Source: Acidobacteriota bacterium
GTDB lineage: Bacteria; Acidobacteriota; UBA4820; DSQY01
Direction of reading: 5' to 3'
Assembly (NCBI GenBank): GCA_040752915.1
Contig: JBFMHB010000007.1
Coordinates: forward strand, 1-64,000
DNA: 64,000 bases
A program made the position numbers and the translations under genes. Shown here piece by piece: positions 22,500-36,091 of this stretch. Every line of letters begins with the position of its first letter. The first letter of the stretch is position 1. The notes under the pieces were generated by a model. That model did no database searches, was not told the origin of the DNA, and was given only the letters and a program-made list of their open reading frames with translations.

Positions 22500-23093
22500 T
22501 TACGCCCCTTCGTCTTCCCACCATCTCTCTCGGAGGAATCGGTAGGCCCCCCTGTTGGCCACCAGGTGGGACTCCACGGACCTCAACACCCGCCTCTCGA
22601 CAAGCCCGTTTTCCCTCAGGGTTCGGCCCGTGTCCACCACATCGACGATGACATCCGAGAGCCCCAGGGCCGGCGCCAGCTCGGCGGAGGAAAGGAGGCG
22701 AATGATCCGGACCCACTCCCCGCTTTCGCCGAAGATCCGCTCCACCGTGCGCGGGTACTTGGTCGCCACTCGGAGAGGGCCTTCGCGGGGCGGGTCCTCT
22801 CCATGGGGTCCGGCCAGGGACAGGCGGCAGGTCCCGAAACCGAGGGCCTTGAGGTCGTACACGTCGGGGCTCTGCTCCTCGAGGACGTCCGAACCGACGA
22901 TCCCCAAGTCGGCCGCGCCGTTCTGGACGAACACCGGCACGTCCGGGCCCTTGAGCAGCACGACCTCCCAGCCCGGACCGAGCGGGAGGAGAAGGGCCCG
23001 AGCTCCCAGGTCTGGGCGTTGGAAACCCCGGCTGCAGAGCCAGTTCAGGGCGGGTTCGAGGATTCTTCCCTTGGTCAAGGCGATTCTGGGCAC
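22500..23093 (-). CDS. hisG: ATP phosphoribosyltransferase, short HisZ-dependent form
   Basis: First committed step of histidine synthesis: ATP + PRPP to phosphoribosyl-ATP. 197 residues from a GTG at 23093 with AAGGAG six bases before it; the longer frame begins inside hisZ. VPRIALTKGRILE opens the protein, NGAADLGIVGSDVLEE and LSDVIVDVVDTGRTLREN are conserved. The C-terminal regulatory ACT-like domain of long HisG is missing, as expected when HisZ is present. It is the last gene of the his operon, 58 bases after hisZ, the only real gap in the operon. Confidence 0.94.
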   Translation of the reverse strand: MPRIALTKGRILEPALNWLCSRGFQRPDLGARALLLPLGPGWEVVLLKGPDVPVFVQNGAADLGIVGSDVLEEQSPDVYDLKALGFGTCRLSLAGPHGEDPPREGPLRVATKYPRTVERIFGESGEWVRIIRLLSSAELAPALGLSDVIVDVVDTGRTLRENGLVERRVLRSVESHLVANRGAYRFLRERWWEDEGA

Positions 23094-23151
23094 GGCCTTC
23101 TCCTTCCAGACTTCGTTTTCGAAAGCGCCTATCGGAATCTCCGGTCGGCCT

Positions 23152-24138
23152 TCATCGCACGGCCCCGCCGCGAGCTTGGCCGGCAGGGCCAATCCCGCTC
23201 AGATCCACGGCGAAACCGATGGCGCCGAAGGAGCGTCCCAGAGCCGGATACAGCCCGTCGTAGCGGCCTCCCGAGAGGACCGCGGACGGGTGACCCGGAC
23301 GAAACGCCTTGAAGGTGAGTCCCGTGTAGTAATCCCAGTGACGCACATCGGCGGGGTCCAGGCGCAGGGTCAGGCCGGGGAAAAGGGCCTCCAGCCGCGC
23401 GCCCTGGTTTCTCAGTTCGAGCCAAATCTCCCACGCCCCGAGGGCCTGGAGGTCCGGGCGGAGGGACTCCACCTCCCCGGGCCGATCTCCCACGTGGAGC
23501 AACCGTCTCAAGGCGCGGGACTCGGCCGTGGCTCCGTACCGGTCTTCGAGTCCGCCAAGGGCGGAAAGGCTCTTCGCGTTCAACGCCCGACCCAGTGCCT
23601 CCTTGCCCTCGGCGGGCCAGGCCACGGACTCGAGGAGCGGACCCACCAACCCCCAGTGGCCCAACTCCAAGACGGCGCCTTTCAAGTCGAAGGACAAGAG
23701 GCTTTCCGCGGCCAGGGCCAGGATTTCCTCGTCGCCCTCCGGACCGGGTGAGCCCGATACCCGCTCGCACCCGGACTGGAGGATCTCGAGTCCGGCACTT
23801 CCGTCTCCTCGGGGCCGGCGGACCACAACCCCCGAGTAGCAGAGCCGCAGTGGACCGTCCAGGCGTTCCACGCGGCGGGACACCATCCAGGCGACCCCCG
23901 ATGTGAAGTCCGCACGGAGGGCCAGAGGTCCGGCTCCTTCCGACCTGACCGGGAGGATCCGCGAGTTGAGGGCCTCGGGAGATGCCCTCCGCGCGGCGGC
24001 TTCCGGGACCAAGAGCGGAGGAACGACCTCGGAGAAGCCGCGGCTCCGCCAAAGCTCCATGAGCGCCCCTTCCACTTCCCGGAGTCTCTTCGTGGGCTCC
24101 ATCCACAGCCCGGCGCTCAGCCCTCCGGCGGCGATCAC
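23152..24138 (-). CDS. hisZ: ATP phosphoribosyltransferase regulatory subunit
   Basis: Histidyl-tRNA synthetase paralogue without aminoacylation activity; pairs with short HisG and confers histidine feedback. 328 residues. Class II core remnants: LRADFTSGVAWMVSRR (motif 2 region) and WDYYTGLTFKAF with LSGGRYDGLYPALG near the C-terminus. The anticodon-binding domain of HisRS is absent. GTG start at 24138 overlaps the hisIE stop by four bases; an ATG at 24102 is a possible alternative. Confidence 0.92.
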   Translation of the reverse strand: MIAAGGLSAGLWMEPTKRLREVEGALMELWRSRGFSEVVPPLLVPEAAARRASPEALNSRILPVRSEGAGPLALRADFTSGVAWMVSRRVERLDGPLRLCYSGVVVRRPRGDGSAGLEILQSGCERVSGSPGPEGDEEILALAAESLLSFDLKGAVLELGHWGLVGPLLESVAWPAEGKEALGRALNAKSLSALGGLEDRYGATAESRALRRLLHVGDRPGEVESLRPDLQALGAWEIWLELRNQGARLEALFPGLTLRLDPADVRHWDYYTGLTFKAFRPGHPSAVLSGGRYDGLYPALGRSFGAIGFAVDLSGIGPAGQARGGAVR

Positions 24139-24743
24139 GGGGAGCCTCCCTCTCGCGCCGCCAGGGCGCCGAGCACCTCTGCCAGCGACACACCCCGGTC
24201 CGCCCAGAGCACCAGGAGGTGGTAAAGGAGATCCGCCGACTCCTCCACGACCCTCTCACGGCTCTCCGAGAGAGCCGCCACGACGGTCTCCACGGCCTCT
24301 TCTCCGACCTTCCTTGCGATCCGGGGCGTGCCTGCCCGAAAGAGGGCGGCGGTCCGGGACCCCTGCGGGAGGTTCCCTTTCCGTGCCGCGATGGTCTCTT
24401 CCAGCCGCTCCAAGACCCCCCCAGAAGGCGCGCCGCCCCAGAGCCTCTCGTTGAAGCACGTGGACGCGCCGGTGTGGCAGGTGGGTCCCTTGGGGACCAC
24501 GGCGACGAGGAGGCAATCTCCGTCGCAATCCGCCGAGACCGCCGACACCTCGTGGAGGTTCCCCGAGGTCTCCCCCTTCTTCCATAGCCGGTCCCGCGAA
24601 CGGGAGTGGAGGTGGAGAAGGCCCGTGAGCCTCGTCGCCTCGAAGGCCTCACGGTCCATGTACCCCAGCATGCGCACCTGCCCGGTCCGGGCATCCTGAA
24701 CCACCGCGGGAAGAAGCGCGTTTCTCTCGAAATCGGGACTCAT
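24135..24743 (-). CDS. hisI: Bifunctional phosphoribosyl-AMP cyclohydrolase / phosphoribosyl-ATP pyrophosphatase
   Basis: Steps 2 and 3 of histidine synthesis in one 202-residue chain (HisIE). The N-terminal cyclohydrolase domain (~1-105) has the metal site SADCDGDCLLV and TCHTGASTCF. The C-terminal pyrophosphohydrolase domain (~108-200) has KVGEEAVETVVAAL and EESADLLYHLLVLW. ATG overlaps the hisF stop by four bases. Confidence 0.95.
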   Translation of the reverse strand: MSPDFERNALLPAVVQDARTGQVRMLGYMDREAFEATRLTGLLHLHSRSRDRLWKKGETSGNLHEVSAVSADCDGDCLLVAVVPKGPTCHTGASTCFNERLWGGAPSGGVLERLEETIAARKGNLPQGSRTAALFRAGTPRIARKVGEEAVETVVAALSESRERVVEESADLLYHLLVLWADRGVSLAEVLGALAAREGGSP

Positions 24744-25489
24744 GGGCGGACCTCCTGGCCTCTGCCGGAGAGAAAGCCTTTCAAGGCGGGGATCGTCAGG
24801 CTTCCCTCATGGAAAACCGACGCCGCGAGGACCGCGTCGGCCCCCGCTTCCAACGCTTCGAGAAAATGGGCAGGCGCCCCCGCGCCTCCCGACGCGACGA
24901 CGGGAAGGCGGGTGAACCCGGCGAGGGCTCGGTAGAGGTCCGTGTCGAACCCGCCCCGGGTCCCGTCGGCGTCCATGCTGGTGATTAGGAGTTCCCCGGC
25001 CCCGAGCCGCTCGGCGAGCTCGGCCCACTCGAGGGCATCCCGACCCGTTCGGCGCGACCCCGCCGCCGCCATCACCTCCCATCCCCCCCCGCTCCTCCTC
25101 CTAACGTCCATGGCCAGAACGACGCACTGGCGGCCGAAGCGCTCGGAGGCCTTGGAAAGCAACGAGGGATCGTCCAGGGCGGCGGTGTTGACGGCGACTT
25201 TGTCCGCCCCCGCCCTCAGCAAGTCCGCCACGTCTTCGGCGCTCCGGACCCCTCCCCCCGCCGTGATGGGGAGAAAGACCCTCTCCGACACTTTCTCCAG
25301 GACGTGGAGGAGGGGGCGCCTGCCCTCGAGGGTGGCGCCCACGTCCAGAAAGACGAGTTCGTCGGCGCCCTGGGCGTCGTACCGGGAAGCCAGCTCCACC
25401 GGATCGCCGACGCGCCGAAGGCCTTGGAACCGGAGGCCCTTCACGACTCCCCGGGAGTCCACGTCCAGGCACGGTATGACCCGTTTCAT
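24740..25489 (-). CDS. hisF: Imidazole glycerol phosphate synthase cyclase subunit
   Basis: With HisH converts PRFAR and ammonia to imidazole glycerol phosphate and AICAR. 249-residue TIM barrel. Catalytic Asp in IPCLDVDSRG near the N-terminus and in TSMDADGTRGGFD (~residue 170). Phosphate loops ITAGGGVRS and VASGGAGAP are present. Start ATG at 25489 overlaps the hisA stop (ATGA). The open frame extending upstream is a shadow of hisA. Confidence 0.96.
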   Translation of the reverse strand: MKRVIPCLDVDSRGVVKGLRFQGLRRVGDPVELASRYDAQGADELVFLDVGATLEGRRPLLHVLEKVSERVFLPITAGGGVRSAEDVADLLRAGADKVAVNTAALDDPSLLSKASERFGRQCVVLAMDVRRRSGGGWEVMAAAGSRRTGRDALEWAELAERLGAGELLITSMDADGTRGGFDTDLYRALAGFTRLPVVASGGAGAPAHFLEALEAGADAVLAASVFHEGSLTIPALKGFLSGRGQEVRP

Positions 25490-26241
25490 CGCCAGGTCTC
25501 CTTCATGTCCTCGACCCGGACCATTCCTTCGTAAAGGGCGCGGCCCACCACGGCGCCGCAGAGGTGCCCCATGGACGCGAGCGCCTCCAGATCCTGGGCC
25601 TGGCGCACTCCCCCCGACGCCAGGATCGACAACCCGCAATCGGAGAGGGAGGCGTAGAGGGCGTGGTTGGGACCCTCGCCGGTGCCGTCCCGCTCGATGT
25701 CCGTCACCAGGGCCTCCGAGTACCCCAGGTCGCTGGCGAGGCGCGCGGCCCGCCCCACGTCTTCGCCCGCGTCCCGCCTCCACCCGGCCACTCGGACCCG
25801 GCCGCCCCGCGAGTCGAGGGCCGCCACGGCGCGCGTCCCGAGGGCATCCGACACCGCCGCCGCTTCCGCGGGTCGGTCGAAGAGCAGGGTCCCGACGACG
25901 ACGCGGGCCGCCCCGGCCTCGGCCAGGGACAGGGCCGAGGCCGCGCCGCGGATTCCACCGCCCGCCTGGAGGGCGACTTGAGGGAATGCCCTGGCCGCGC
26001 GGCGAACGATGGGGACGAGGGACGGCTCCCGACCGAAGGCGGCGCCCAGATCCACCAGGTGCAGGCGGATCAGCCCGGCCTCGGCCCACCGGTCCACCCA
26101 CTCCTCGGCGGACCCGTAATCGGTGACGTCCCCCTCCTGCCCACGCCGCAAGCGGACGGCGCGTCCCGACAGGACGTCCACGGCCGCCCAGGCGAGAAAG
26201 GGCCGCCCGCCATTTCGGAGAGACCCCTGCGCCGGACTCAC
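25486..26241 (-). CDS. hisA: ProFAR isomerase
   Basis: Fourth-step isomerase of histidine synthesis, 251-residue TIM barrel. The GTG at 26241 is preferred: it overlaps the hisH stop (GTGA) and GAGAGG lies upstream. The catalytic Asp near the N-terminus is in AAVDVLSGRAVRLRRG; the second, VTDIERDGTGEGPN, is at ~residue 165. LQAGGGIRG and LASGGVRQ form the phosphate sites. The N-terminus is about ten residues longer than most HisA. Confidence 0.93.
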   Translation of the reverse strand: MSPAQGSLRNGGRPFLAWAAVDVLSGRAVRLRRGQEGDVTDYGSAEEWVDRWAEAGLIRLHLVDLGAAFGREPSLVPIVRRAARAFPQVALQAGGGIRGAASALSLAEAGAARVVVGTLLFDRPAEAAAVSDALGTRAVAALDSRGGRVRVAGWRRDAGEDVGRAARLASDLGYSEALVTDIERDGTGEGPNHALYASLSDCGLSILASGGVRQAQDLEALASMGHLCGAVVGRALYEGMVRVEDMKETWR

Positions 26242-26840
26242 CGCGCCACCTCTCGGAGAAGCGCTCCGAGGTAGGCGACCCCGGCGCGATGGGATTTCTC
26301 GGGGTGGAACTGGACGCCGGCGACCCGCCCGCGCCGCACGGCGGCCGGGAAGACCTCCCCGTGTCGGGCCCAGGCCGGAACGTCGCGCGCGTCTACGGGT
26401 TTCGCCGCGTAGGAATGAACGAAGTAGGCCCACTCCAGCCGGGCTTCGGGAGAGCCCTCCTGCGCCCCTTCCAGCTTCGCCCATCCTATGTGAGGCACCT
26501 TGGCCATCCGGGAGCACAGGCGCCGCACGCCCCCGGCGAACAGCCCGAGCCCCTGAACGCCGGGGCTCTCCTCGGAGCCCTCGAAAAGGAGCTGGAGGCC
26601 GAGGCAGATCCCCACGATCGCGCCGCCCTCGCTCGCCCACTCGCGGAGGAAGGACGCCCAGCCGGAGGCGTCGAGCCGCCCCATGGCGTGGCCGAAGGAG
26701 CCCACTCCCGGAAGGAGGATCACGTCCGGCGACGGCCCCCGAGGCTCGGTCCGCGTTTCGTGCGAGACCCCCAGGAGGGTGAGGGCGTTTCCCAGGGATC
26801 GGAGGTTTCCCGTGCCCGAATCCACGACGCAGACTTTCAT
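26238..26840 (-). CDS. hisH: Imidazole glycerol phosphate synthase glutaminase subunit
   Basis: Class I glutamine amidotransferase that feeds ammonia to HisF. 200 residues. Nucleophilic Cys in VGICLGLQLLFEGS, catalytic His and Glu in GVQFHPEKS, and the oxyanion-side LLPGVGSFGHAM. ATG at 26840 overlaps the hisB stop (ATGA). Confidence 0.96.
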   Translation of the reverse strand: MKVCVVDSGTGNLRSLGNALTLLGVSHETRTEPRGPSPDVILLPGVGSFGHAMGRLDASGWASFLREWASEGGAIVGICLGLQLLFEGSEESPGVQGLGLFAGGVRRLCSRMAKVPHIGWAKLEGAQEGSPEARLEWAYFVHSYAAKPVDARDVPAWARHGEVFPAAVRRGRVAGVQFHPEKSHRAGVAYLGALLREVAR

Positions 26841-27418
26841 AGAACCCCCTTGGTGCTTCGGACCTTTTGGGGCACCGGAGAACAGGCCTGGCGGAGGGCC
26901 ATGGCGAGGGCCTTGAAGGCCGACTCGAGGGCATGGTGGCCGTTCTCCGCGCGCAGGACGTCGAGATGGAGCGTGAACCGGCCTTCGGAGGAGAGGGACC
27001 GGAAGAAGTGCGCCGCCATGTCGCCCGGAAAGTCCCCGATTCTCTCGGGCAGGGGCGGGCTCGTGAAGGTGCAGCCAGGACGCCGGGCGAGGTCCACCAC
27101 GGCCCGGGCGAGGGCCTCGTCGAGGGGGGCGTAGGCCCATCCGAAACGCGCCAACCCTTCCCGCCGGCCCAGGGCCTCGTCCAAGGCCCGGCCCAGGGAG
27201 ATGGACACGTCCTCCACGCAGTGGTGCGCATCGACGTGGAGGTCTCCCCTGGCGCGAAGGGAGAGGCCGAAGTCCCCGTGGACGGCGAGGGTTTCCAGCA
27301 TGTGGTCCAGAAACCCCACCCCCGTTTCCACGGCCACGGGGCCTCCGCGCAGGCTCAGGCCGACTTCGAGCCTCGTCTCCCTCGTCTCCCGCACGATCTT
27401 CGCTCTCGCTCTCGTCAC
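26837..27418 (-). CDS. hisB: Imidazoleglycerol-phosphate dehydratase (monofunctional)
   Basis: Dehydrates imidazole glycerol phosphate to imidazole acetol phosphate. 193 residues, so the E. coli-type N-terminal histidinol-phosphatase domain is absent. Metal-binding motifs FLDHMLETLAVHGDF, DAHHCVEDVSISLG and ENGHHALESAFKALA. GTG start at 27418 with AAGGAGG upstream, overlapping the HAD gene stop (GTGA). Confidence 0.95.
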   Translation of the reverse strand: MTRARAKIVRETRETRLEVGLSLRGGPVAVETGVGFLDHMLETLAVHGDFGLSLRARGDLHVDAHHCVEDVSISLGRALDEALGRREGLARFGWAYAPLDEALARAVVDLARRPGCTFTSPPLPERIGDFPGDMAAHFFRSLSSEGRFTLHLDVLRAENGHHALESAFKALAMALRQACSPVPQKVRSTKGVL

Positions 27419-28278
27419 GACCCGGCCTCCTTCCCGCAAGACCTTCCACCGCAAATCAGGACGAACAACTCTCTCAGGGACGCCGCCACCCGGTACGCCC
27501 CGCCCGCACGAAACCGGGCCTCGCGGGCGCTTCCCGCCGGGGCGATTCCGGCGAAGGCCGCGTCCAGCCCCCGGGCACGGGAGGAGAGGGCGGCACGCAG
27601 GTCGTCCACCGTGTCCCCAACCACCAGGGGACGGACCGACCCCATGCGGAAGGCAAGCTCCAGGACACCGTCGGGGCACGGCTTGCGAAACCGGGGCTCC
27701 GAATCGGCCACGAGCAGGCTGGGGTCCAGAGTCAGGCCCAGGCGGAAGAGCCCCAGCCGGGCCTCCTCGGGGGACCGGCCCGTCAGGACCCCGAAGGGCA
27801 GGCCCGTGGATTCCAGTTCTCTCGCCGCGATCAGGGGGACCTCATGCTCCCAAAGTCCCCGTGATTCCGTGGGCGTCAGGCCGTACAGATCCCCTGCGCG
27901 GGGTCCGGCGTACAGGAGCTGGACGGTTCTTCGTACCCTCGGGTACACCTCGTCCCACGAGCTCTCCCCGGCGAGTTCCCGGACGGAGGCCGGGCCGCCT
28001 CCCCTCTCCGCCAGCCTCGCGCAGAGGGCCTCCCAGCCGGGGCCCGGCCCGGTCGCTGGGCCGAGAAGGGCCAGCGCCGTCGCCGCGTCCCAGTCGTTGT
28101 TGAAGCCGCCCGCGAGACGGAGGGGCTCCAGGTCCTTCTCCGTCCAGCCGGCTCCCAGACCGGGCTCCAGCGCGTTCTTCCGCGCCGAAGCGAGCACCGC
28201 CACGGGAAAGGACCCCGACGTGTCGAGGAGGACGCCGTCCATGTCGAGGATCAGGGCGTCGAAGGGAGGCCGGTTCAC
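27415..28278 (-). CDS. HAD-superfamily (IA) phosphatase embedded in the his operon
   Basis: A 287-residue HAD hydrolase. All four HAD motifs are intact: nucleophile DMDGVLLDTSGSF (residues ~12-24), motif II GVLTGRSPEEA, motif III Lys in FRKPCPDGVLEL and motif IV VVGDTVDDLRAA. A cap region lies between motifs I and II. GTG start at 28278 has GGAGGTGG upstream and overlaps the hisC stop; its own stop overlaps the hisB start, so it is translated in step with the pathway. No HisB N-terminal domain, HisN or HisK/HisJ-type PHP gene is in the operon, so dephosphorylation of histidinol phosphate is the obvious candidate role (inference). A phosphoglycolate-phosphatase-like housekeeping role is the alternative. 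Confidence 0.85.
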   Translation of the reverse strand: MNRPPFDALILDMDGVLLDTSGSFPVAVLASARKNALEPGLGAGWTEKDLEPLRLAGGFNNDWDAATALALLGPATGPGPGWEALCARLAERGGGPASVRELAGESSWDEVYPRVRRTVQLLYAGPRAGDLYGLTPTESRGLWEHEVPLIAARELESTGLPFGVLTGRSPEEARLGLFRLGLTLDPSLLVADSEPRFRKPCPDGVLELAFRMGSVRPLVVGDTVDDLRAALSSRARGLDAAFAGIAPAGSAREARFRAGGAYRVAASLRELFVLICGGRSCGKEAGS

Positions 28279-29336
28279 GAAACCACCTCCTTCAGGGCCT
28301 CGAGGACGGCGTCGTTCTCCGCCGGTGTCCCTACGGAGATCCGGAGGCATCCGCGCAGGGCGGGGTGGGCGGAGACGTCCCGGACCAGAACCCCTCGGGC
28401 CTTGAGGGCCGAATGCACCTCCGCGGCCTCCCATCTCTCCAGACGGACCAGGATGAAGTTGGCCTCCGAGGCATAGACCCTCAGGCCCTCGATCCTGCCG
28501 AGACGCTCAGAGAGTTCGGCGCGGGAGCGAAGGAGATCCCTCACCCGTCCCTCGAAGATCTCCCTCCGTGTGAGGGCGGCTTCCCCCAGGGTCAGGGCGA
28601 GGGGGCTGACGTTGTAGGGCAGGAGGGCCTTCGCGACCTGTTCCGCGACCGCCGGTGAGGCGAGCAGGTAGCCCAACCGAAGGGCGGCGCTCCCCCACGC
28701 CTTCGAGAAGGTCCGCAGGACCACCAAGTTATCCCTTCCGGGGAGGAGGGAGGCCGCCGAAGGTTCCATCGAGAACTCCCCGTACGCCTCGTCCACCGCG
28801 ACGATCCCCGGAGCGGCCTCCAGAAGGCGCTCCAGACCCGACCTGGGCAGGAGCGAGCCGGTGGGGTTGTTGGGAGACCCCACGAGCGCGACGGCTGGAG
28901 AGAAATCCTCGAGAGCCTGGACCCATGGGTCGAGGTCGTAGTCCATGTTCTCCGAAAGGGCCACCTCCCGAACCTCCCCCCGGGCGAGGAGGATGAGCTG
29001 CCTGTAAAGGGAGAAGGAGGGCGAAGGAATCAGGCCCGAGCGGCCTTCTCCGAGGCAGGCGGTAAAGAGGGCGGCGAGAAGCTCGTTGGACCCGTTTCCC
29101 AACAGGCAAGAACCTTCGGGCAGACCCCACCTCTCGCACAAGAGGGAGGCGAGACGCGATCCCCGAAAGGCGGGGTAGCGGTGGAAGGGGGTGGCGGCGA
29201 GTCGTTCCAGCGCCTCGCGCTTGAGTTCCTCGGGCCAGTCCCACGGGGACTCGTTCTGGTTCGCCTTCACCGGTAGAGGCGGCTCCTCCATGAAGTAGGC
29301 GCGCAGGGCCAGGACCTCGGGCCGGAAGGCGTTCAC
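28275..29336 (-). CDS. hisC: Histidinol-phosphate aminotransferase
   Basis: PLP-dependent transamination of imidazole acetol phosphate. 353 residues. Substrate-binding KANQNESPWDWP near the start, LVGSPNNPTGS, VDEAYGEF, and the PLP Lys in RTFSKAWGSAALRLGY. GTG at 29336 has GGAGG upstream and overlaps the hisD stop (GTGA). The much longer open frame upstream is a shadow of hisD. Confidence 0.96.
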   Translation of the reverse strand: MNAFRPEVLALRAYFMEEPPLPVKANQNESPWDWPEELKREALERLAATPFHRYPAFRGSRLASLLCERWGLPEGSCLLGNGSNELLAALFTACLGEGRSGLIPSPSFSLYRQLILLARGEVREVALSENMDYDLDPWVQALEDFSPAVALVGSPNNPTGSLLPRSGLERLLEAAPGIVAVDEAYGEFSMEPSAASLLPGRDNLVVLRTFSKAWGSAALRLGYLLASPAVAEQVAKALLPYNVSPLALTLGEAALTRREIFEGRVRDLLRSRAELSERLGRIEGLRVYASEANFILVRLERWEAAEVHSALKARGVLVRDVSAHPALRGCLRISVGTPAENDAVLEALKEVVS

Positions 29337-30643
29337 GGCGACCTCCGGGCGGACAGCGATTCGGCGTGGCCATGGAGTCCTTCCGACCTGGCCAAACGCT
29401 CCATCCACGGCGCGGCCCCTCGAAGGGCCCCCGCGTCCATCTCCAGAAAGGACTGGTACCTCACGAAATCCCACAAGGTCACCGGGGAGGAAAAGCGGGC
29501 CGTCCCCCCCGTGGGAAGGCTGTGGTTGGGCCCAGCCCCGTAGTCCCCGGCGGCCTCGGGAGAATAGGGGCCCAGAAAGACGGCCGCCGCCGTGGGCACC
29601 CGCGCGGCCCATGCCCGGGGACTCCCGGCCATGACGCTGAGGTGTTCGGGAGCCAGGATCCGGGCGGCGGCGCATGCGAGAGAGCGGCCGGCGCACGTGA
29701 GGATAGTCCCCATGTGCTTCAGGCTCTCTCGCTGAATCTTCCCCCTCGGCGAGCGGTCGAGGAGCCGCTCCATCTCGGCCTCCACCCGATCGCCTTCCAG
29801 TGGGTCCGTCGTGATCAGGACCGCCGAGGCGAGGACGTCGTGCTCGGCCTGAGCCAGCAAGTCCGCCGCGATCCACGAGGGAGGGGCGGTCCCGTCCGAG
29901 AGGATCACGAGTTCCGTCGGGCCGGCCACGGCGTCGATTCCCACGCGGCCGAAGACCTGCCTCTTCGCTTCGGCCACGTAGGCGTTCCCCGGACCGAGGA
30001 TCTTGTCCACCCGGGGCACGGTCTGGGTCCCGAAGGCGAAGGCCCCCACGGCGGCGGCCCCGCCCAGGGCGTACACCTCCGAGAGGCCGAGCAGGTGGGC
30101 CGCGGCGAGCACCGCCCCGTCGGGGACGCTCGAGGGGCCGGCCGGCGTGGCGACGGCGATTCGCCCCACTCCGGCTAGTTGGGCGGGAATGGCCAGCATG
30201 AGGAGGGTGGAGGGATAGGAGGCGCGTCCGCCGGGTACGTAGAGGCCCACGCTTTCCAGGGGAAAGGGGCGAAGACCCGCCCGCATCCCCCGTTTTCGAA
30301 TGCGCATTCCCCGAATCCGTTGAGCCGCGTGGAAGTCCCGGATCGACGCCGCGCCGCGCGCAAGGGCCGATCTTACCGGGGCCGGACACGCCCTCCAGGC
30401 CCGGTCGAGGACTTCCTCCCCCACTTTCAGTGCCTGGGCTCCCGGGCAGGCGGGCCAGTCGAAGGCGCGAACGGCCTCCACGAGGGCCGCATCGCCCAGG
30501 CGCCTGACGGACGAGAGGGTGCGTCGAACGCGCCCCTGCACGCCTGGATTCTCCTGCCTTCTCCTCTCCAGAAAGACCTCCACGCGGGCCAGGTCAGATT
30601 CCTTCTCGAGCCGGATTCTCCGCATCCGCTTCCGCGCCTTCAT
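29333..30643 (-). CDS. hisD: Histidinol dehydrogenase
   Basis: Last two oxidation steps to histidine, NAD- and zinc-dependent. 436 residues. GPGNAYVAEAKRQVFG, DAVAGPTELVILSD, AQAEHDVLASAVLIT, PEHLSVMAG and GPNHSLPTGGTARF are all present, including the zinc and catalytic His residues. ATG at 30643 with GGAGG five bases upstream, 18 bases after the attenuator T-run. First structural gene of the operon. Confidence 0.96.
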   Translation of the reverse strand: MKARKRMRRIRLEKESDLARVEVFLERRRQENPGVQGRVRRTLSSVRRLGDAALVEAVRAFDWPACPGAQALKVGEEVLDRAWRACPAPVRSALARGAASIRDFHAAQRIRGMRIRKRGMRAGLRPFPLESVGLYVPGGRASYPSTLLMLAIPAQLAGVGRIAVATPAGPSSVPDGAVLAAAHLLGLSEVYALGGAAAVGAFAFGTQTVPRVDKILGPGNAYVAEAKRQVFGRVGIDAVAGPTELVILSDGTAPPSWIAADLLAQAEHDVLASAVLITTDPLEGDRVEAEMERLLDRSPRGKIQRESLKHMGTILTCAGRSLACAAARILAPEHLSVMAGSPRAWAARVPTAAAVFLGPYSPEAAGDYGAGPNHSLPTGGTARFSSPVTLWDFVRYQSFLEMDAGALRGAAPWMERLARSEGLHGHAESLSARRSP

Positions 30644-30660: not shown

Positions 30661-30688
30661 AAAAAAGGCCCTCCGTTTCCGGAGGGCC
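30661..30688 (-). terminator. His operon attenuator terminator
   Basis: Minus strand: GGCCCTCCG (30688-30680), GAAA loop, CGGAGGGCC (30675-30667), then TTTTTT. It lies between the leader peptide and hisD. Its 5' arm can instead pair with CGGAGGG at 30733-30727, forming an antiterminator. Confidence 0.9.
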
Positions 30689-30711
30689 CTGCTCACGCGA
30701 GATACCGCGCA

Positions 30712-30792
30712 CTACGCGGCCGCGCGCCCTCCGGTCGCACCCGTCCCGTGATGATGGAGGTGGGTGAATAGGACGGAGGGTCTGGCGCTCAT
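30712..30792 (-). CDS. hisL: His operon leader peptide
   Basis: A 26-residue open frame, MSARPSVLFTHLHHHGTG..., with four histidine codons in a five-codon block (CAC CTC CAT CAT CAC at 30762-30748). GAGGT lies eight bases upstream of the ATG at 30792. The peptide has no function other than to let the ribosome sense charged tRNA-His. Segment 1 (CCCTCCGTC, 30780-30772) lies before the His codons and segment 2 (GACCGGAGGG, 30736-30727) after them, so a stalled ribosome masks 1 and frees 2 to pair with the terminator's 5' arm. It is too short to stand out by length alone. Confidence 0.88.
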   Translation of the reverse strand: MSARPSVLFTHLHHHGTGATGGRAAA

Positions 30793-30814
30793 GATTCGAC
30801 CTCGAAAGAGCCAA

Positions 30815-30843
30815 TGTGTATCACTGCTCAGGCTCCACGTCAA
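30815..30843 (-). promoter_or_regulatory. His operon promoter
   Basis: Minus strand: TTGACG (30843-30838), 17-base spacer ending in TGA, then TACACA (30820-30815). The TG one base before the -10 makes it an extended -10 promoter, offsetting the imperfect hexamer. Leader ATG is 23 bases downstream of the -10. Confidence 0.7.
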
Positions 30844-30867
30844 GGGGCGGGCCCGAAAGCCCGCCCC
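30844..30867 (-). terminator. Hairpin between the secreted kelch protein and the his promoter
   Basis: GGGGCGGGC and GCCCGCCCC form a 9-bp stem with a six-base loop, 23 bases after the stop of the 30891-35993 gene. The next bases are the TTGACG of the his promoter, so there is no T-run. Confidence 0.5.
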
Positions 30868-30890
30868 CAATGGGTCTCGAACGACGAATC

Positions 30891-33800
30891 CTACCGAGTG
30901 AAACTGTACGGCGCCGAATCCACTCCGTCGTCCGTGTTGGCGACCGCGATCTGGACCGTTGTTCCCTTCGGGCACGCGCTCTTGAGGTCCGCTCCCTTGG
31001 CCACGATCTTCGTGGCGCTCTTCCACGTCACCGTGCCGCGGGTCACCCCGTTCACCTTGACCGTGCAAGGATTGTGGAAGTTGGAGCCCAGGATGATGAG
31101 ACGGAACGGCCCCGACTTGGCCGAAATCGAAGAAATCGAAGCGGGCGTCACATAGGCAAAGGCCCCGGCCAAAGTGGCCGAGGGTTTCCCGGGAACGGTC
31201 ACCGTGACGTCCACGGCCCCTTCCGCGTGGGCCGGTGCGGTGCACGTGATCGTCGTGGAATTCACGAGGGTCACGCCGGTGGCGGCGGTTCCCCCGAAGG
31301 TCACCGAGGCGCCCGCCGCGAAGTTCGTGCCCGTGAGGGTCACCGCCGTCCCTCCGAGGGTGGAGCCCTTTGCGGGGCTTACGCCCGTGAGGGTGGGCGG
31401 CGGGCTCGTCACCGTGATGGACAGGTGGCTGTCCACACCGGAATTGGAATGGCCGTCCGTGGCTGTCAGGGTCACGGGGAAGGTGCCCGACGTGGAGTAG
31501 GTATGGCTGGGATTCTGCAGGTTGGAGTGGGCGGTCCCGTCGCCGAAATTCCAGTCGTAGGTGTAGGGCCCGCCGTCCCCTCCGGAGGCGGATCCGGTGA
31601 AGGAAACGGTGAGAGGTGCGCTGCCGGTCGTGGCGGAGGCTCCCGCCGTGGCGACCACCGCGCCGTATCCAACGGTCAGATTCACCGGGACAGTGATGGC
31701 GGGATAGGGGGTGTCCCCCGAAACCAGGAGCCACCCGTGGTACGTGCCATTTCCGAGAGCCGACGCGTCGAGGGTCACGGTGACGGGAGTGGTGCCCAGG
31801 GCGGCGACGGTCCCCGAGGTCGGGGAGGCGCTCAACCAGGAAACGTCCGGAGATTCGCTGCAGGCGGCGCCGTCGTCCAGGCGCTGCAGGAAATCGACCG
31901 TGGCCGTTGCGCCGGACCCACCGGCCGTCACAAGACCATCGTTCACGCAGTCGCACGCGGCCCCCACTACGGGTGTGGGGACGCTCTCCCCCTGGAAAAC
32001 CCAGGACCCGGCGGGCCAGGCCGACGTGTCGAGCTTGTACGTCTCGGGGTAGGGGTTCCAGATGTCGCCGCCCAAACCGCCCCCGCTGGAAACGTAGAGT
32101 CCGCTGCCGTACCAGGCGGCCTGGGGACTCATCCGGCCCTGGGGCAAGGCGGGACCGGAGACGTCCCACGTGTTGGAAACGGGGTCGTAGCGCTGGACGT
32201 CACTCACGGTGTCGATGCCGCTGGAACCTCCCACGACGAAGACGTGGCCCTGGACGGTCACCGCGGCGCCGTACGTGGTCGCCGTGGGAAGGGCCGCCAA
32301 GGGCCCCGTCCAGGAAGTGGTGCCGGGATCGTACTTCCAGGTTTCGGAACTCGGCCCTGGGTTGCCGCCGAAGGCGTAGAGCATCCCTCCCGCCGCAGCG
32401 GTCATGGGCGTTCGCGCGTTGGGCCATGTGCTGGCCGTCCAGGAGTCGCCGGGGATGTCGTAGATCAGGAAGTGGTTGGTGTGGGCGCTCCCCGTGTAGC
32501 CGCCCACGAGGTAGATCTTGGTCCCGATGGCCGTGGCCTCCATGTTCGTGAGGGCCACGGGCATGTCGGCGAGCTGGTGCCAGGAGTCCGTGAAGGAGTC
32601 GTACCTCCAGCTCTCGTTGAGCACCGTACCCGAGGCGTCCGCCCCACCGAAAACGTAGAGGTAGCGCCCATCCGGAGTGGTGCCGGCGGAGCGGTACCGC
32701 GCCCCGGTCGGGATGGGCGTTCCGGTGGTCCAGGTGTTCGGAAGTTCGCCGAGGCGGTCCTGGGGGGCCGTTTCGGAGGGATCCCAGTAAAGCTGCTGCT
32801 TGAGCTTGTAGGGCGTCCGGGCGGGAAGAGCCGGAGGGGCAGGCGCCTGTTCCGACTCGAGGATGGAGAAGTTCACGGTCCGCTCGCCTGAGTTCGAGAG
32901 AGTGAGGGTCCGGGTCGTGCTCCCGCCCGGGGAGAGGGACACGTCGATGGGCGAGGGTGAGGCGGAGAGCTGGCCGGCGGCGAGGTTGAAATTCTGTTCG
33001 ACGGTCGTACCGGCGGCCACGGCCGGCGTCTGGGTGGAGGAGGCGTAGCTCGAGCCTTTGGAGGCCTGGATGGCGTCGTTCCCGTCCGAATAGAGGCAGT
33101 AGAAGGCGTCGTCCACGTTGGGGTCGGCGGTCGCCGCGGCCGCCGTCGAGGCGCCGCTGTCGAGATTGGCCACCGAGGCCCCGGTGAGGGCGATCCCCGT
33201 GTTGGCGTCGTAGACGTTCCCCACCACGAGGCCGCCCGTCGAGGGCTCTCCGCACCCGGAGGTCACCTGGAGGTCATCGATGTGGACGTCGTTGCCGTAC
33301 TGGCTGACCCCGAGGAGCCCGATCCGCACGTCCGAGAGGGGACCCGTGATCCCCGACAGGACCACCACGTGCTGTTTCCAGCCCGTGGTCCCGTCGTAGC
33401 GGGGGACGGCGGACCCTACGCTCTGCCACGTGGATCCGCCGTCGGTGGAGGCCTGGACCTGGACCCGGTCCATGGATCCAGAATACCCGGTGTCGTGGTA
33501 CATCCAGAAGATCGCCGCGGCCGCCGGGGAGCCGGTCAGGTTGACGCCGCTGGTCCGGTACAGGCGCGTGTCGCTGCCGGACGCGGCCGTGTAGGAATTG
33601 AAGTAGGCCAGACGGGAGCCGCCGTGGGGGGAGACCCCCGAGGGGTGGACGGTGGAGGCGGAGGTCGCCCAGTTCCCCGAGGTGCCGCTCACGTCCGTCT
33701 GGGCCCAACCGGAGGGCAGGCCCGGCGGCGTGGCGCTCTCGAAGCCCTCGGAGAAAAAGACCGTCCCGTTGCTCAGACTGTAGCCGGGTGCGTTGCACGT

Positions 33801-35993
33801 GGTCCCGTTGGGCGTCAGGTGGAAGCTCATGTTCACGTCGCCCGTGATGGGACCCACGGTGGCCTGGTAAGTCTGGTAGCCGGGGACATACGCCGATACG
33901 GTGATGTCGTAACTCGCACCGGCGGGGAGCTGGAGGGTGCACGTTCCCGTCACCGGGTCCGTCCAAATCGCGCCGTAGGGGTAGCCGCTGACGGTGAGCG
34001 AGGCGTAGAGGGGCCAAGAGGTGTTGGTGTCCAGAACCCAGATGGAAACTTGGTGGAGCGGGGATGAAGACAGCGAGAAATTCTGGATCGTCACCGCCGA
34101 CTCGGTCACGGTGACCCCGTTGGCCGTCTGGGTCACGAACCCCCACCCGCTCACCGTCACCGTGTACGTGCCCACGGGAAGGGTCATGCTGTACGTCCCG
34201 TTTCCGTTCGTGGTCACCTGGACGGTGGTGCTGGCCGAAGTGGCCGTGACCCTGGCGCCGGGAATCGGCAGTCCCGAGGCGGAACTCGACACGGTGCCCT
34301 GAAGCGTCCCCTCCGGACCCGTCGTGCAGTTGGGGAACTTGAAGGCGCCGACCCTCGTGAGCCACGGCGCCGAGGCCGTGGTGGCTCCGATGTACTCCTG
34401 GGTGTACCAGAAGGTGCAATCGTCCGTGGGGTCGATGCTCAGGGTGCTGTAGTCCCCCCAGCGGTAGGAGCCGCCCGTTTGGACTCCCGGCCCGCCGACC
34501 ATGAGGGAAGATTCTCCCTGGGTCAACTCCCCGGGCGGATCGCCCGATAGCCTCCCCGCATAGCGGATCGAGGGATACACGGACCCCGAGGAGACGCTGT
34601 AGCCCACGGCCAGGTTGCCCATGTGGTCCATGGCGGCGCTGCCCATCCAGCGGTGTTCCGTGTCGGCGGGGGCAAAGGTGCCCTCCTGGTGGACGCTCCA
34701 CGAGCCGCCAAAGCGCCGCAGCTCGAACCAGCGCACGCCGGCCCGGCCGCTGCCCGCGTCCACGGTCATGTTCACGACCGCCGATTCGTAGGAGCCCTTG
34801 TTCCGGTAGTTGAGCCGGTACATCAGGCGGTCTCCGATTTCGTCCAGCCCCACCGAGGTCCCCGGCTGGGGGATGCAGTCCCGGGTGGAGGGGCACAGGA
34901 CCGTGAAGGGAGTCACGTCGAGGATCTGGTTGGGCTCGAAGGAGGCCAGGCCCAGCGTGGAGTTGGCCGGCGTGTCCCAATCCACGCGGCATTCCCAGAT
35001 GCGCAGGGCGTCGTTGGAATACCCGGGGATCCAGGTCCCGTCGTCCACCTCCATGATGTAGTTCGGCGTTCCCGCAAGGGGGGCGTTCCACGTGGATTCC
35101 ATGTGGGACGGGAGCATGCCGCCGTAGTTGAGGTTGACCGCCCCGATATCGAAGTACTGGAAGGTGGCCGAGGGGTCCCCGGCCAGCATCTTCTCCCTGT
35201 CGAAGACCACCACCCCGGCGCCGCCCCAGGAGCTGGCGTTGACGAACTGGTTGATCGTCATGTAGTAGCCGTCGGGCCACACGCCGAACTTGGGGTAGTC
35301 GTTCATCTTGGTCGTGCTGAGCTGGAAGCAGTAGAGATACCAGGAACCGAGCGGGTCGCTCGTGGCCGACACGGCGATGGCCTGATAGTAGGGCCCCGGA
35401 ACCACGAACTGGCTGATGAGCCACCGGTCCGCCAGGGCGTCATAGAGAACGATGGGGTCCCCGTCGTTGTTGGTGGCGCAGGCGCCTCCCAGGGAGGCCC
35501 AGATCGTGTTGCCGTCCACGGGGCCGAAGAGGGAGGTCCCGTTCTTGTCCCAGATCTGGAGGGACAGGTTCACCCACTGGATGTAGTGGTTCGGTCCCAC
35601 GTCGCCTTCGGTGTCGGGCGGGTAGACGCCGTTGAGGTTGCTGATCCCCTCCCACTGTTTGGAGGGCGCGGGCATGGAGCCGAGGCCGGGCCAGGACTGG
35701 ACCACCGCATCCGGAGCGGCGGGCAGGTGGGAGGCGCCGGGATTCTTCTGCTTGGGCAGCGGGGGGTTCTCGGGACCCTGCCTGGATTCGGCCTCGGGGT
35801 TGAAGGCCCGGGGGGGCGGAGGGGCGAGGTCTCTCAGGGGCGGGGACACGGCGAACTTTTGAGCCCGGCCCACAACGGGCGTGAGCGATGTGCGGGAACC
35901 CGCGCCCTGGTTGGGTTCGTCCGCCCAGGAGAAGGGCATTCCCAGAACCAGGGCGAACGCCACCGCGAGCCAGGTCAACCTGAACCGATGCAT
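30891..35993 (-). CDS. Large secreted multi-domain protein (kelch, PKD, IPT/TIG, carboxypeptidase-regulatory-like)
   Basis: A 1700-residue exported protein, probably surface-located; function unknown. ATG at 35993 with GGAGG upstream begins a signal peptide (MHRFRLTWLAVAFALVLGMPFSWA). The N-terminal ~550 residues hold an adhesin-like sensor/propeller region (VYPPDTEGDVGPNHYIQWVN, then YPKFGVWPDGYYMT). Then come carboxypeptidase-regulatory-like beta domains, a choice-of-anchor/MAM-like domain (FFSEGFESATPPGLPSGW), BACON-like domains, a kelch propeller of roughly six repeats coded by about 31960-32760, a PKD domain (DWNFGDGTAHS, near 31540) and two C-terminal IPT/TIG-like domains (about 31410-30900). 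No sorting signal or transmembrane tail is seen. It is flanked by its own promoter and a hairpin, hence monocistronic. Confidence 0.85.
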   Translation of the reverse strand: MHRFRLTWLAVAFALVLGMPFSWADEPNQGAGSRTSLTPVVGRAQKFAVSPPLRDLAPPPPRAFNPEAESRQGPENPPLPKQKNPGASHLPAAPDAVVQSWPGLGSMPAPSKQWEGISNLNGVYPPDTEGDVGPNHYIQWVNLSLQIWDKNGTSLFGPVDGNTIWASLGGACATNNDGDPIVLYDALADRWLISQFVVPGPYYQAIAVSATSDPLGSWYLYCFQLSTTKMNDYPKFGVWPDGYYMTINQFVNASSWGGAGVVVFDREKMLAGDPSATFQYFDIGAVNLNYGGMLPSHMESTWNAPLAGTPNYIMEVDDGTWIPGYSNDALRIWECRVDWDTPANSTLGLASFEPNQILDVTPFTVLCPSTRDCIPQPGTSVGLDEIGDRLMYRLNYRNKGSYESAVVNMTVDAGSGRAGVRWFELRRFGGSWSVHQEGTFAPADTEHRWMGSAAMDHMGNLAVGYSVSSGSVYPSIRYAGRLSGDPPGELTQGESSLMVGGPGVQTGGSYRWGDYSTLSIDPTDDCTFWYTQEYIGATTASAPWLTRVGAFKFPNCTTGPEGTLQGTVSSSASGLPIPGARVTATSASTTVQVTTNGNGTYSMTLPVGTYTVTVSGWGFVTQTANGVTVTESAVTIQNFSLSSSPLHQVSIWVLDTNTSWPLYASLTVSGYPYGAIWTDPVTGTCTLQLPAGASYDITVSAYVPGYQTYQATVGPITGDVNMSFHLTPNGTTCNAPGYSLSNGTVFFSEGFESATPPGLPSGWAQTDVSGTSGNWATSASTVHPSGVSPHGGSRLAYFNSYTAASGSDTRLYRTSGVNLTGSPAAAAIFWMYHDTGYSGSMDRVQVQASTDGGSTWQSVGSAVPRYDGTTGWKQHVVVLSGITGPLSDVRIGLLGVSQYGNDVHIDDLQVTSGCGEPSTGGLVVGNVYDANTGIALTGASVANLDSGASTAAAATADPNVDDAFYCLYSDGNDAIQASKGSSYASSTQTPAVAAGTTVEQNFNLAAGQLSASPSPIDVSLSPGGSTTRTLTLSNSGERTVNFSILESEQAPAPPALPARTPYKLKQQLYWDPSETAPQDRLGELPNTWTTGTPIPTGARYRSAGTTPDGRYLYVFGGADASGTVLNESWRYDSFTDSWHQLADMPVALTNMEATAIGTKIYLVGGYTGSAHTNHFLIYDIPGDSWTASTWPNARTPMTAAAGGMLYAFGGNPGPSSETWKYDPGTTSWTGPLAALPTATTYGAAVTVQGHVFVVGGSSGIDTVSDVQRYDPVSNTWDVSGPALPQGRMSPQAAWYGSGLYVSSGGGLGGDIWNPYPETYKLDTSAWPAGSWVFQGESVPTPVVGAACDCVNDGLVTAGGSGATATVDFLQRLDDGAACSESPDVSWLSASPTSGTVAALGTTPVTVTLDASALGNGTYHGWLLVSGDTPYPAITVPVNLTVGYGAVVATAGASATTGSAPLTVSFTGSASGGDGGPYTYDWNFGDGTAHSNLQNPSHTYSTSGTFPVTLTATDGHSNSGVDSHLSITVTSPPPTLTGVSPAKGSTLGGTAVTLTGTNFAAGASVTFGGTAATGVTLVNSTTITCTAPAHAEGAVDVTVTVPGKPSATLAGAFAYVTPASISSISAKSGPFRLIILGSNFHNPCTVKVNGVTRGTVTWKSATKIVAKGADLKSACPKGTTVQIAVANTDDGVDSAPYSFTR

Positions 35994-36091
35994 GGCCACC
36001 TCCAGACCACCGTGCGGCATGGAGCGCGATTCCCACGCCCTCTCGTGCCGCGGGGCCTTGCGGATCCCGTCCGGCGGGATGATCCACTTTC

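Follow-up and report, generated by a model that had tools for sequence, protein, structure and literature searches.

In all likelihood, the histidine operon of the window (the whole stretch of DNA analysed here, 64,000 nucleotides) is preceded by a class I, ribosome-mediated transcription attenuator, as judged from the sequence and from modelled RNA folds. Its leader and terminator would very probably switch the operon off when histidine is plentiful. The case is built on established elements, namely the leader, the alternative pairings, the terminator, the gene content of the operon and the conservation of these features. The first-pass annotation had already read the region as a histidine attenuator, and this reading is supported by the conserved leader and pairings, by the folds and by the his operon downstream.

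Organisation of the leader region

Read on the minus strand, the leader ORF runs from an ATG at 30792-30790 through 26 sense codons to a TAG stop at 30714-30712, with histidine at codons 11, 13, 14 and 15, that is, at four of the five codons spanning 30762-30748 (Table 1). Direct reading thus confirmed the 26-codon minus-strand ORF with four His in five codons described at first pass, and the coordinates given there for segments 1-4 and the T6 run all proved correct. A long frame at 30712-32169, probably spurious, overruns the leader ORF and shows how a gene finder could overlook it. As a simple consensus promoter scan of the window gave no score to the TTGACG...TACACA pair ahead of the leader, this promoter is listed as putative.

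The segment 2 stretch at 30736-30727 reads GACCGGAGGG, the segment 3 stretch at 30688-30680 reads GGCCCTCCG, and segment 4 at 30675-30667 reads CGGAGGGCC, followed by T6 at 30666-30661. Segments 2 and 3 share a perfect 9-bp match, in which 30734-30726 (CCGGAGGGC) pairs with 30687-30679 (GCCCTCCGG), and this pairing excludes both 1:2 and 3:4. The terminator-like hairpin AGGGCCCTCCGGAAACGGAGGGCCTT with its T run was recovered independently by a terminator scan and is located between the leader ORF and hisD, the first structural gene. The hisD ATG lies at 30643, about 18 nt beyond the T run, and its Shine-Dalgarno sequence, CTGGAGG at approximately 30653-30647, falls outside the 3:4 hairpin.

Table 1. 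Features of the his leader region, the his operon and the trp leader
Feature	Position	Strand	Evidence
Leader peptide ORF, MSARPSVLFTHLHHHGTGATGGRAAA then stop	30712..30792	(-)	Read from sequence; frame kept in 4/4 relatives with hisD
Regulatory codons His-Leu-His-His-His, codons 11-15	30748..30762	(-)	Sequence reading
Putative promoter TTGACG ... TACACA ahead of leader, 17-nt spacer, poor -10	30798..30842, approximate	(-)	Sequence
GAGG-type Shine-Dalgarno before leader ATG	30799..30805, approximate	(-)	Sequence
Segment 1, CCCTCCGTC, partner of segment 2	30772..30780	(-)	MFE fold without ribosome; pairing kept in relatives despite sequence change
Segment 2, core CCGGAGGGC, partner of 1 or 3	30726..30736	(-)	Sequence, folds, relatives
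Segment 3, partner of 2 (antiterminator) or 4 (terminator)	30679..30688	(-)	Terminator scan, folds, relatives
Segment 4 and T6, 3' arm and U run of intrinsic terminator	30661..30675	(-)	Terminator scan, folds
hisD, histidinol dehydrogenase	29333..30643	(-)	TIGR00069 429.6 bits, over cut-off
hisC, histidinol-phosphate transaminase	28275..29342	(-)	TIGR01141 289.3 bits, over cut-off
HAD-family hydrolase, candidate histidinol-phosphate phosphatase	27415..28278	(-)	TIGR01549 over cut-off; TIGR01548, TIGR01656 weak
hisB, imidazoleglycerol-phosphate dehydratase	26837..27565, start approximate	(-)	NF002111 214.5 bits, below cut-off 231
hisH	26238..26843	(-)	TIGR01855 175.1 bits, over cut-off
hisA	25486..26238	(-)	TIGR00007 165.5 bits, E 1.5e-48, below cut-off
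hisF	24740..25489	(-)	TIGR00735 306.8 bits, over cut-off
hisIE	24135..24743	(-)	NF002747 234 bits, over cut-off
hisZ, HisG regulatory subunit	23152..24138	(-)	TIGR00443 E 6.2e-53, below cut-off
hisG, short form	22500..23114	(-)	TIGR00070 156 bits, over cut-off; PF01634
trp leader peptide, adjacent Trp codons (QLYWWHEG), terminator GGCCCACCGGAGACGGTGGGCCTTTTT	L232 (G000:C68), 709-792, reverse-complement coordinates

The leader is followed by a ten-gene operon, hisD-hisC-HAD-hisB-hisH-hisA-hisF-hisIE-hisZ-hisG, with all genes on one strand and overlapping or separated by short gaps. Analysis of the profile matches placed hisB, hisA and hisZ under their NCBIfam cut-offs, yet none of the three has an E-value worse than about 1e-48. 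Its position in the operon suggests that the HAD hydrolase acts as histidinol-phosphate phosphatase and, if so, the histidine pathway is complete. The genes behind the leader make the very amino acid encoded by the regulatory codons, which is one of the criteria for a class I attenuator.

Just upstream of the his operon, the gene at 30891-36020 (-) encodes a large protein of 1709 amino acids that is probably secreted and seems to contain PKD, IPT and kelch repeats. Immediately past this gene, at 30845-30875 (-), another G+C-rich hairpin, GGGGGCGGGC-TTTC-GGGCCCGCCCC, extends into the TTGAC box and may be the gene's own terminator.

Folding of the leader RNA and proposed switch

Without a ribosome, the minimum free energy structure up to the T run combined 1:2 and 3:4, in the window and in its relatives, while a ribosome placed at the stop codon left 3:4 alone to form. 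When the ribosome was placed at the His codons and the RNA ended at segment 3, segment 3 paired upstream in 16 of the 18 stall positions, taken from five genomes; the exceptions were H18 in G005 and H13 in G004. Both the folds for the three ribosome states and the 9-bp 2:3 match agree with the earlier claim that 1:2 and 3:4 are mutually exclusive with 2:3. The folding check favoured the switch in its three states, but not at equilibrium: once segment 4 was allowed to compete, 3:4 beat 2:3 every time, stalled ribosome included. The two energies in the window are close, at -22.1 kcal/mol for the 2:3 duplex versus -20.4 for the 3:4 hairpin. Since 3:4 always wins at equilibrium, antitermination must be co-transcriptional and set by the order of folding. 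Switching in classical attenuators is likewise generally taken to depend on the order of co-transcriptional folding.

In the proposed switch, a ribosome would begin the leader peptide close behind RNA polymerase. With charged tRNA-His scarce, it would stall at codons 11-15 and cover segment 1, leaving segment 2 to capture the newly made segment 3; the terminator would then be blocked and hisD to hisG transcribed. With histidine plentiful, the ribosome would reach the stop codon and cover segment 2, 3:4 would fold, and transcription would end at T6 before hisD. Should the leader stay untranslated, 1:2 and 3:4 would form and transcription would likewise stop. Promoter use, ribosome stalling, read-through and the response to histidine are predictions of this model.

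Conservation in same-family relatives

Of the eight same-family relatives of the window's genome (G000) in the collection, four have hisD, and in all four a His-rich leader is found shortly 5' of this gene, encoding MANQTFGRFTCKHHRGFHGGAGGCASAA, MANQTFGRFTCKHHLGFHGGARGCASAA, MASRLCAVLAILHHHHGISAAGGCGPAV and MASRLSAVLPILHHHHGISAAGGCGPAV. Although their upstream surroundings are unrelated, they share a common layout made of a TTGAC box, a Shine-Dalgarno sequence, a 28-codon leader with three to four His codons, segments 2-4 and a T run. The boxes lie about where they do in the window and are accompanied by TATAAA-, TATATG- or CATACT-like -10 sequences, and the Shine-Dalgarno sequences, GAGGAG or AAGGAG, are spaced similarly from the ATG. 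Segment 2 is CCGGAGGG near the end of the ORF (CCAGAGGG in G005) and, 25-26 nt past the stop, CCCTCCGG-AGA-CGG(A/G)GGGC-T(5-6) supplies segments 3 and 4 and the T run. The variants of segment 1 (CCCTCCG, ACCTTCG, GCCTCTG and GCCTCTCC) are all complementary to segment 2.

The first-pass annotation had staked its reading on conservation of the leader frame and of the CCCTCCG/CGGAGGG pairing in close relatives. The frame is conserved in 4/4 relatives with hisD, and 1:2, 2:3 and 3:4 are kept in the four, except for one 2:3 mismatch in G005 (L004), where the z-score of the 2:3 complementarity is near 0. In all four relatives, the 1.3 kb preceding the leader gave no match to the window's upstream protein, which indicates that the leader-hairpin unit goes with hisD and not with the upstream gene. 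Three other members of the family (G003, G006 and G008) and family f2 are without hisD; some of these assemblies are incomplete, and histidine synthesis has apparently been lost within the order.

A trp leader, MRGTSSLTVQLYWWHEGPGARAGEAFV, is also present in the window's genome, with a TTGACA box, a Shine-Dalgarno sequence and a terminator, GGCCCACCGGAGACGGTGGGCC-T5, directly before trpE. It carries two Trp codons, and its terminator is much like that of the his leader. Trp-rich leaders (...MNYWWY..., ...GYWWWRQ...) were also found in G001, G004 and G003, so class I attenuation seems to serve more than histidine in the family. No ILV-rich leader was seen upstream of ilvB-like genes in the family, and leuA had no match there at a strict threshold. 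Although it has his and trp genes, the window's genome itself shows no strong match to ilvB large-subunit or leuA models, which may reflect either divergent enzymes or auxotrophy for branched-chain amino acids.

Distribution across the phylum

The VWFA-related acidobacterial domain TIGR03436 was matched in 29 of 30 relatives, over cut-off in 15 and with up to 30 copies per genome, while none of 14 control genomes had it over cut-off. On this distribution, the surveyed phylum was taken to be Acidobacteriota, which it very probably is. The 80 best hits to the HisD sequence fell in Proteobacteria, Firmicutes and other groups, with identities reaching 49%. PF00815 identified hisD in 259 of the phylum's 396 genomes. 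The survey sample comprised 85 stretches of hisD upstream DNA, taken at 80 places, mostly in different genera, and in five family members; a leader was called His-rich when a short ORF lying no more than 2.3 kb from the end of its stretch had four or more His within a span of seven codons.

Such an ORF was present in 37 of the 85 stretches, mostly about 1.5 kb before hisD, a distance into which hisG would fit as first gene. Over all 85 stretches (~502 kb), 43 His-rich short ORFs in sense orientation stood against 1 in antisense; for other amino acids, no such sense-strand excess was seen in the same stretches. A terminator-like hairpin accompanied 36 of 37 leaders examined. Complementarity between the 5' arm of the terminator and the RNA that follows the His codons, corresponding to 2:3, reached p<=0.05 against shuffles in 21/36 (mean z -1.95); the combined Fisher p of 4e-18 is overstated, the shuffles being mononucleotide and the genomes related.

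No 2:3 pairing was visible in the far leaders of G306 and G314. These leaders (L204 and L201, respectively), together with L206 (G116) and L203 (G359), are His-rich leaders from AT-richer genomes of one family, lacking either visible 2:3 (G306, G314) or a clear terminator, and may use another arrangement. We consider it rather probable that his (and trp) attenuation is widespread, possibly ancestral, in Acidobacteriota, seemingly undescribed so far, and that the attenuator heads the operon regardless of which gene leads it, hisG or hisD.

Alternative explanations

The hairpin could merely terminate the upstream gene at 30891-36020, which shares its strand and ends 200 bases ahead of it, with the leader ORF a chance frame. 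One terminator-like site per region of this kind is indeed near chance, and the terminator scan is weak taken alone, with 0.7 such sites expected per shuffled region. However, the relatives have the same leader and hairpin without that gene, and the hairpin ends some 18 nt from the start of hisD. The 43:1 strand bias speaks against a chance frame and, together with the conservation in 4/4 relatives with hisD, places the hairpin beyond chance; we regard this explanation as extremely improbable. Alternatively, the leader might govern access to the ribosome-binding site of hisD; certain his attenuators in other bacteria are known to act at the level of translation (PMC9413887). This is very unlikely here, given the T6 directly after segment 4, the T runs kept in relatives and a hisD Shine-Dalgarno sequence that the 3:4 hairpin leaves out.

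An additional function of the peptide, acting in trans or promoting reinitiation at hisD, deserves scarcely any credence. A role in trans has been reported for leader peptides such as peTrpL (PMC7298713), and the family's conserved Gly-Gly...Ala C-terminus might be taken for conservation of a peptide. Yet this stretch coincides with the segment 2 RNA, CCGGAGGG, and its conservation thus needs no peptide function, while the peptides of other families have little in common except the His run. Transcription attenuation by the translated leader remains the preferred reading.

Comparison with known attenuators

Class I attenuation of his operons is known in Proteobacteria, and leader-peptide attenuation has long been documented mainly in Proteobacteria and Actinobacteria, with Firmicutes added later. 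The kind of attenuator found here is thus already known and its mechanism is textbook; its phylum-wide presence alone seems undescribed, no account of his attenuation in Acidobacteria having been found in the open-licence full-text literature. Here, a his attenuator is assigned in full and recurs across many families of a phylum that is very probably Acidobacteriota. The outcome is a set of uncatalogued small ORFs overlooked by gene finders, together with leader sequences for an Rfam-type model; for bacteria that are difficult to culture, it also predicts that histidine controls the his operon.

In Rfam 15, no model reached its gathering score in the window or at the loci of 20 relatives. This holds for RF00514 (His_leader), also absent from the sub-threshold hits of the leader, and the T-box model matched neither the window, nor the 20 loci, nor those sub-threshold hits. 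The leader's own sub-threshold hits, among them ctRNA_p42d and anti-hemB, were taken as chance hairpin matches.

The closest known counterpart is hisL (RF00514) of E. coli, Salmonella and other gammaproteobacteria, which has the same His-rich leader, the same mutually exclusive 1:2/3:4 and 2:3 pairings and a terminator before the first his gene. In E. coli, the His codons form one long run, whereas the four in the window are split by a Leu (HLHHH). The operons also differ from each other, with hisD first and hisG last in the window. His-leader attenuators have been described in Firmicutes, in the Bacillus cereus group, Peptostreptococcaceae and Erysipelotrichales (PMC9413887, PMC2965389). They resemble the window's element in combining a leader with His codons and a terminator/antiterminator before his genes, in a phylum where this was unexpected, but differ in phylum and gene context; the likeness is one of arrangement, and no sequence similarity is claimed. 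The trp leader attenuators follow the same logic, with Trp sensed instead of His.
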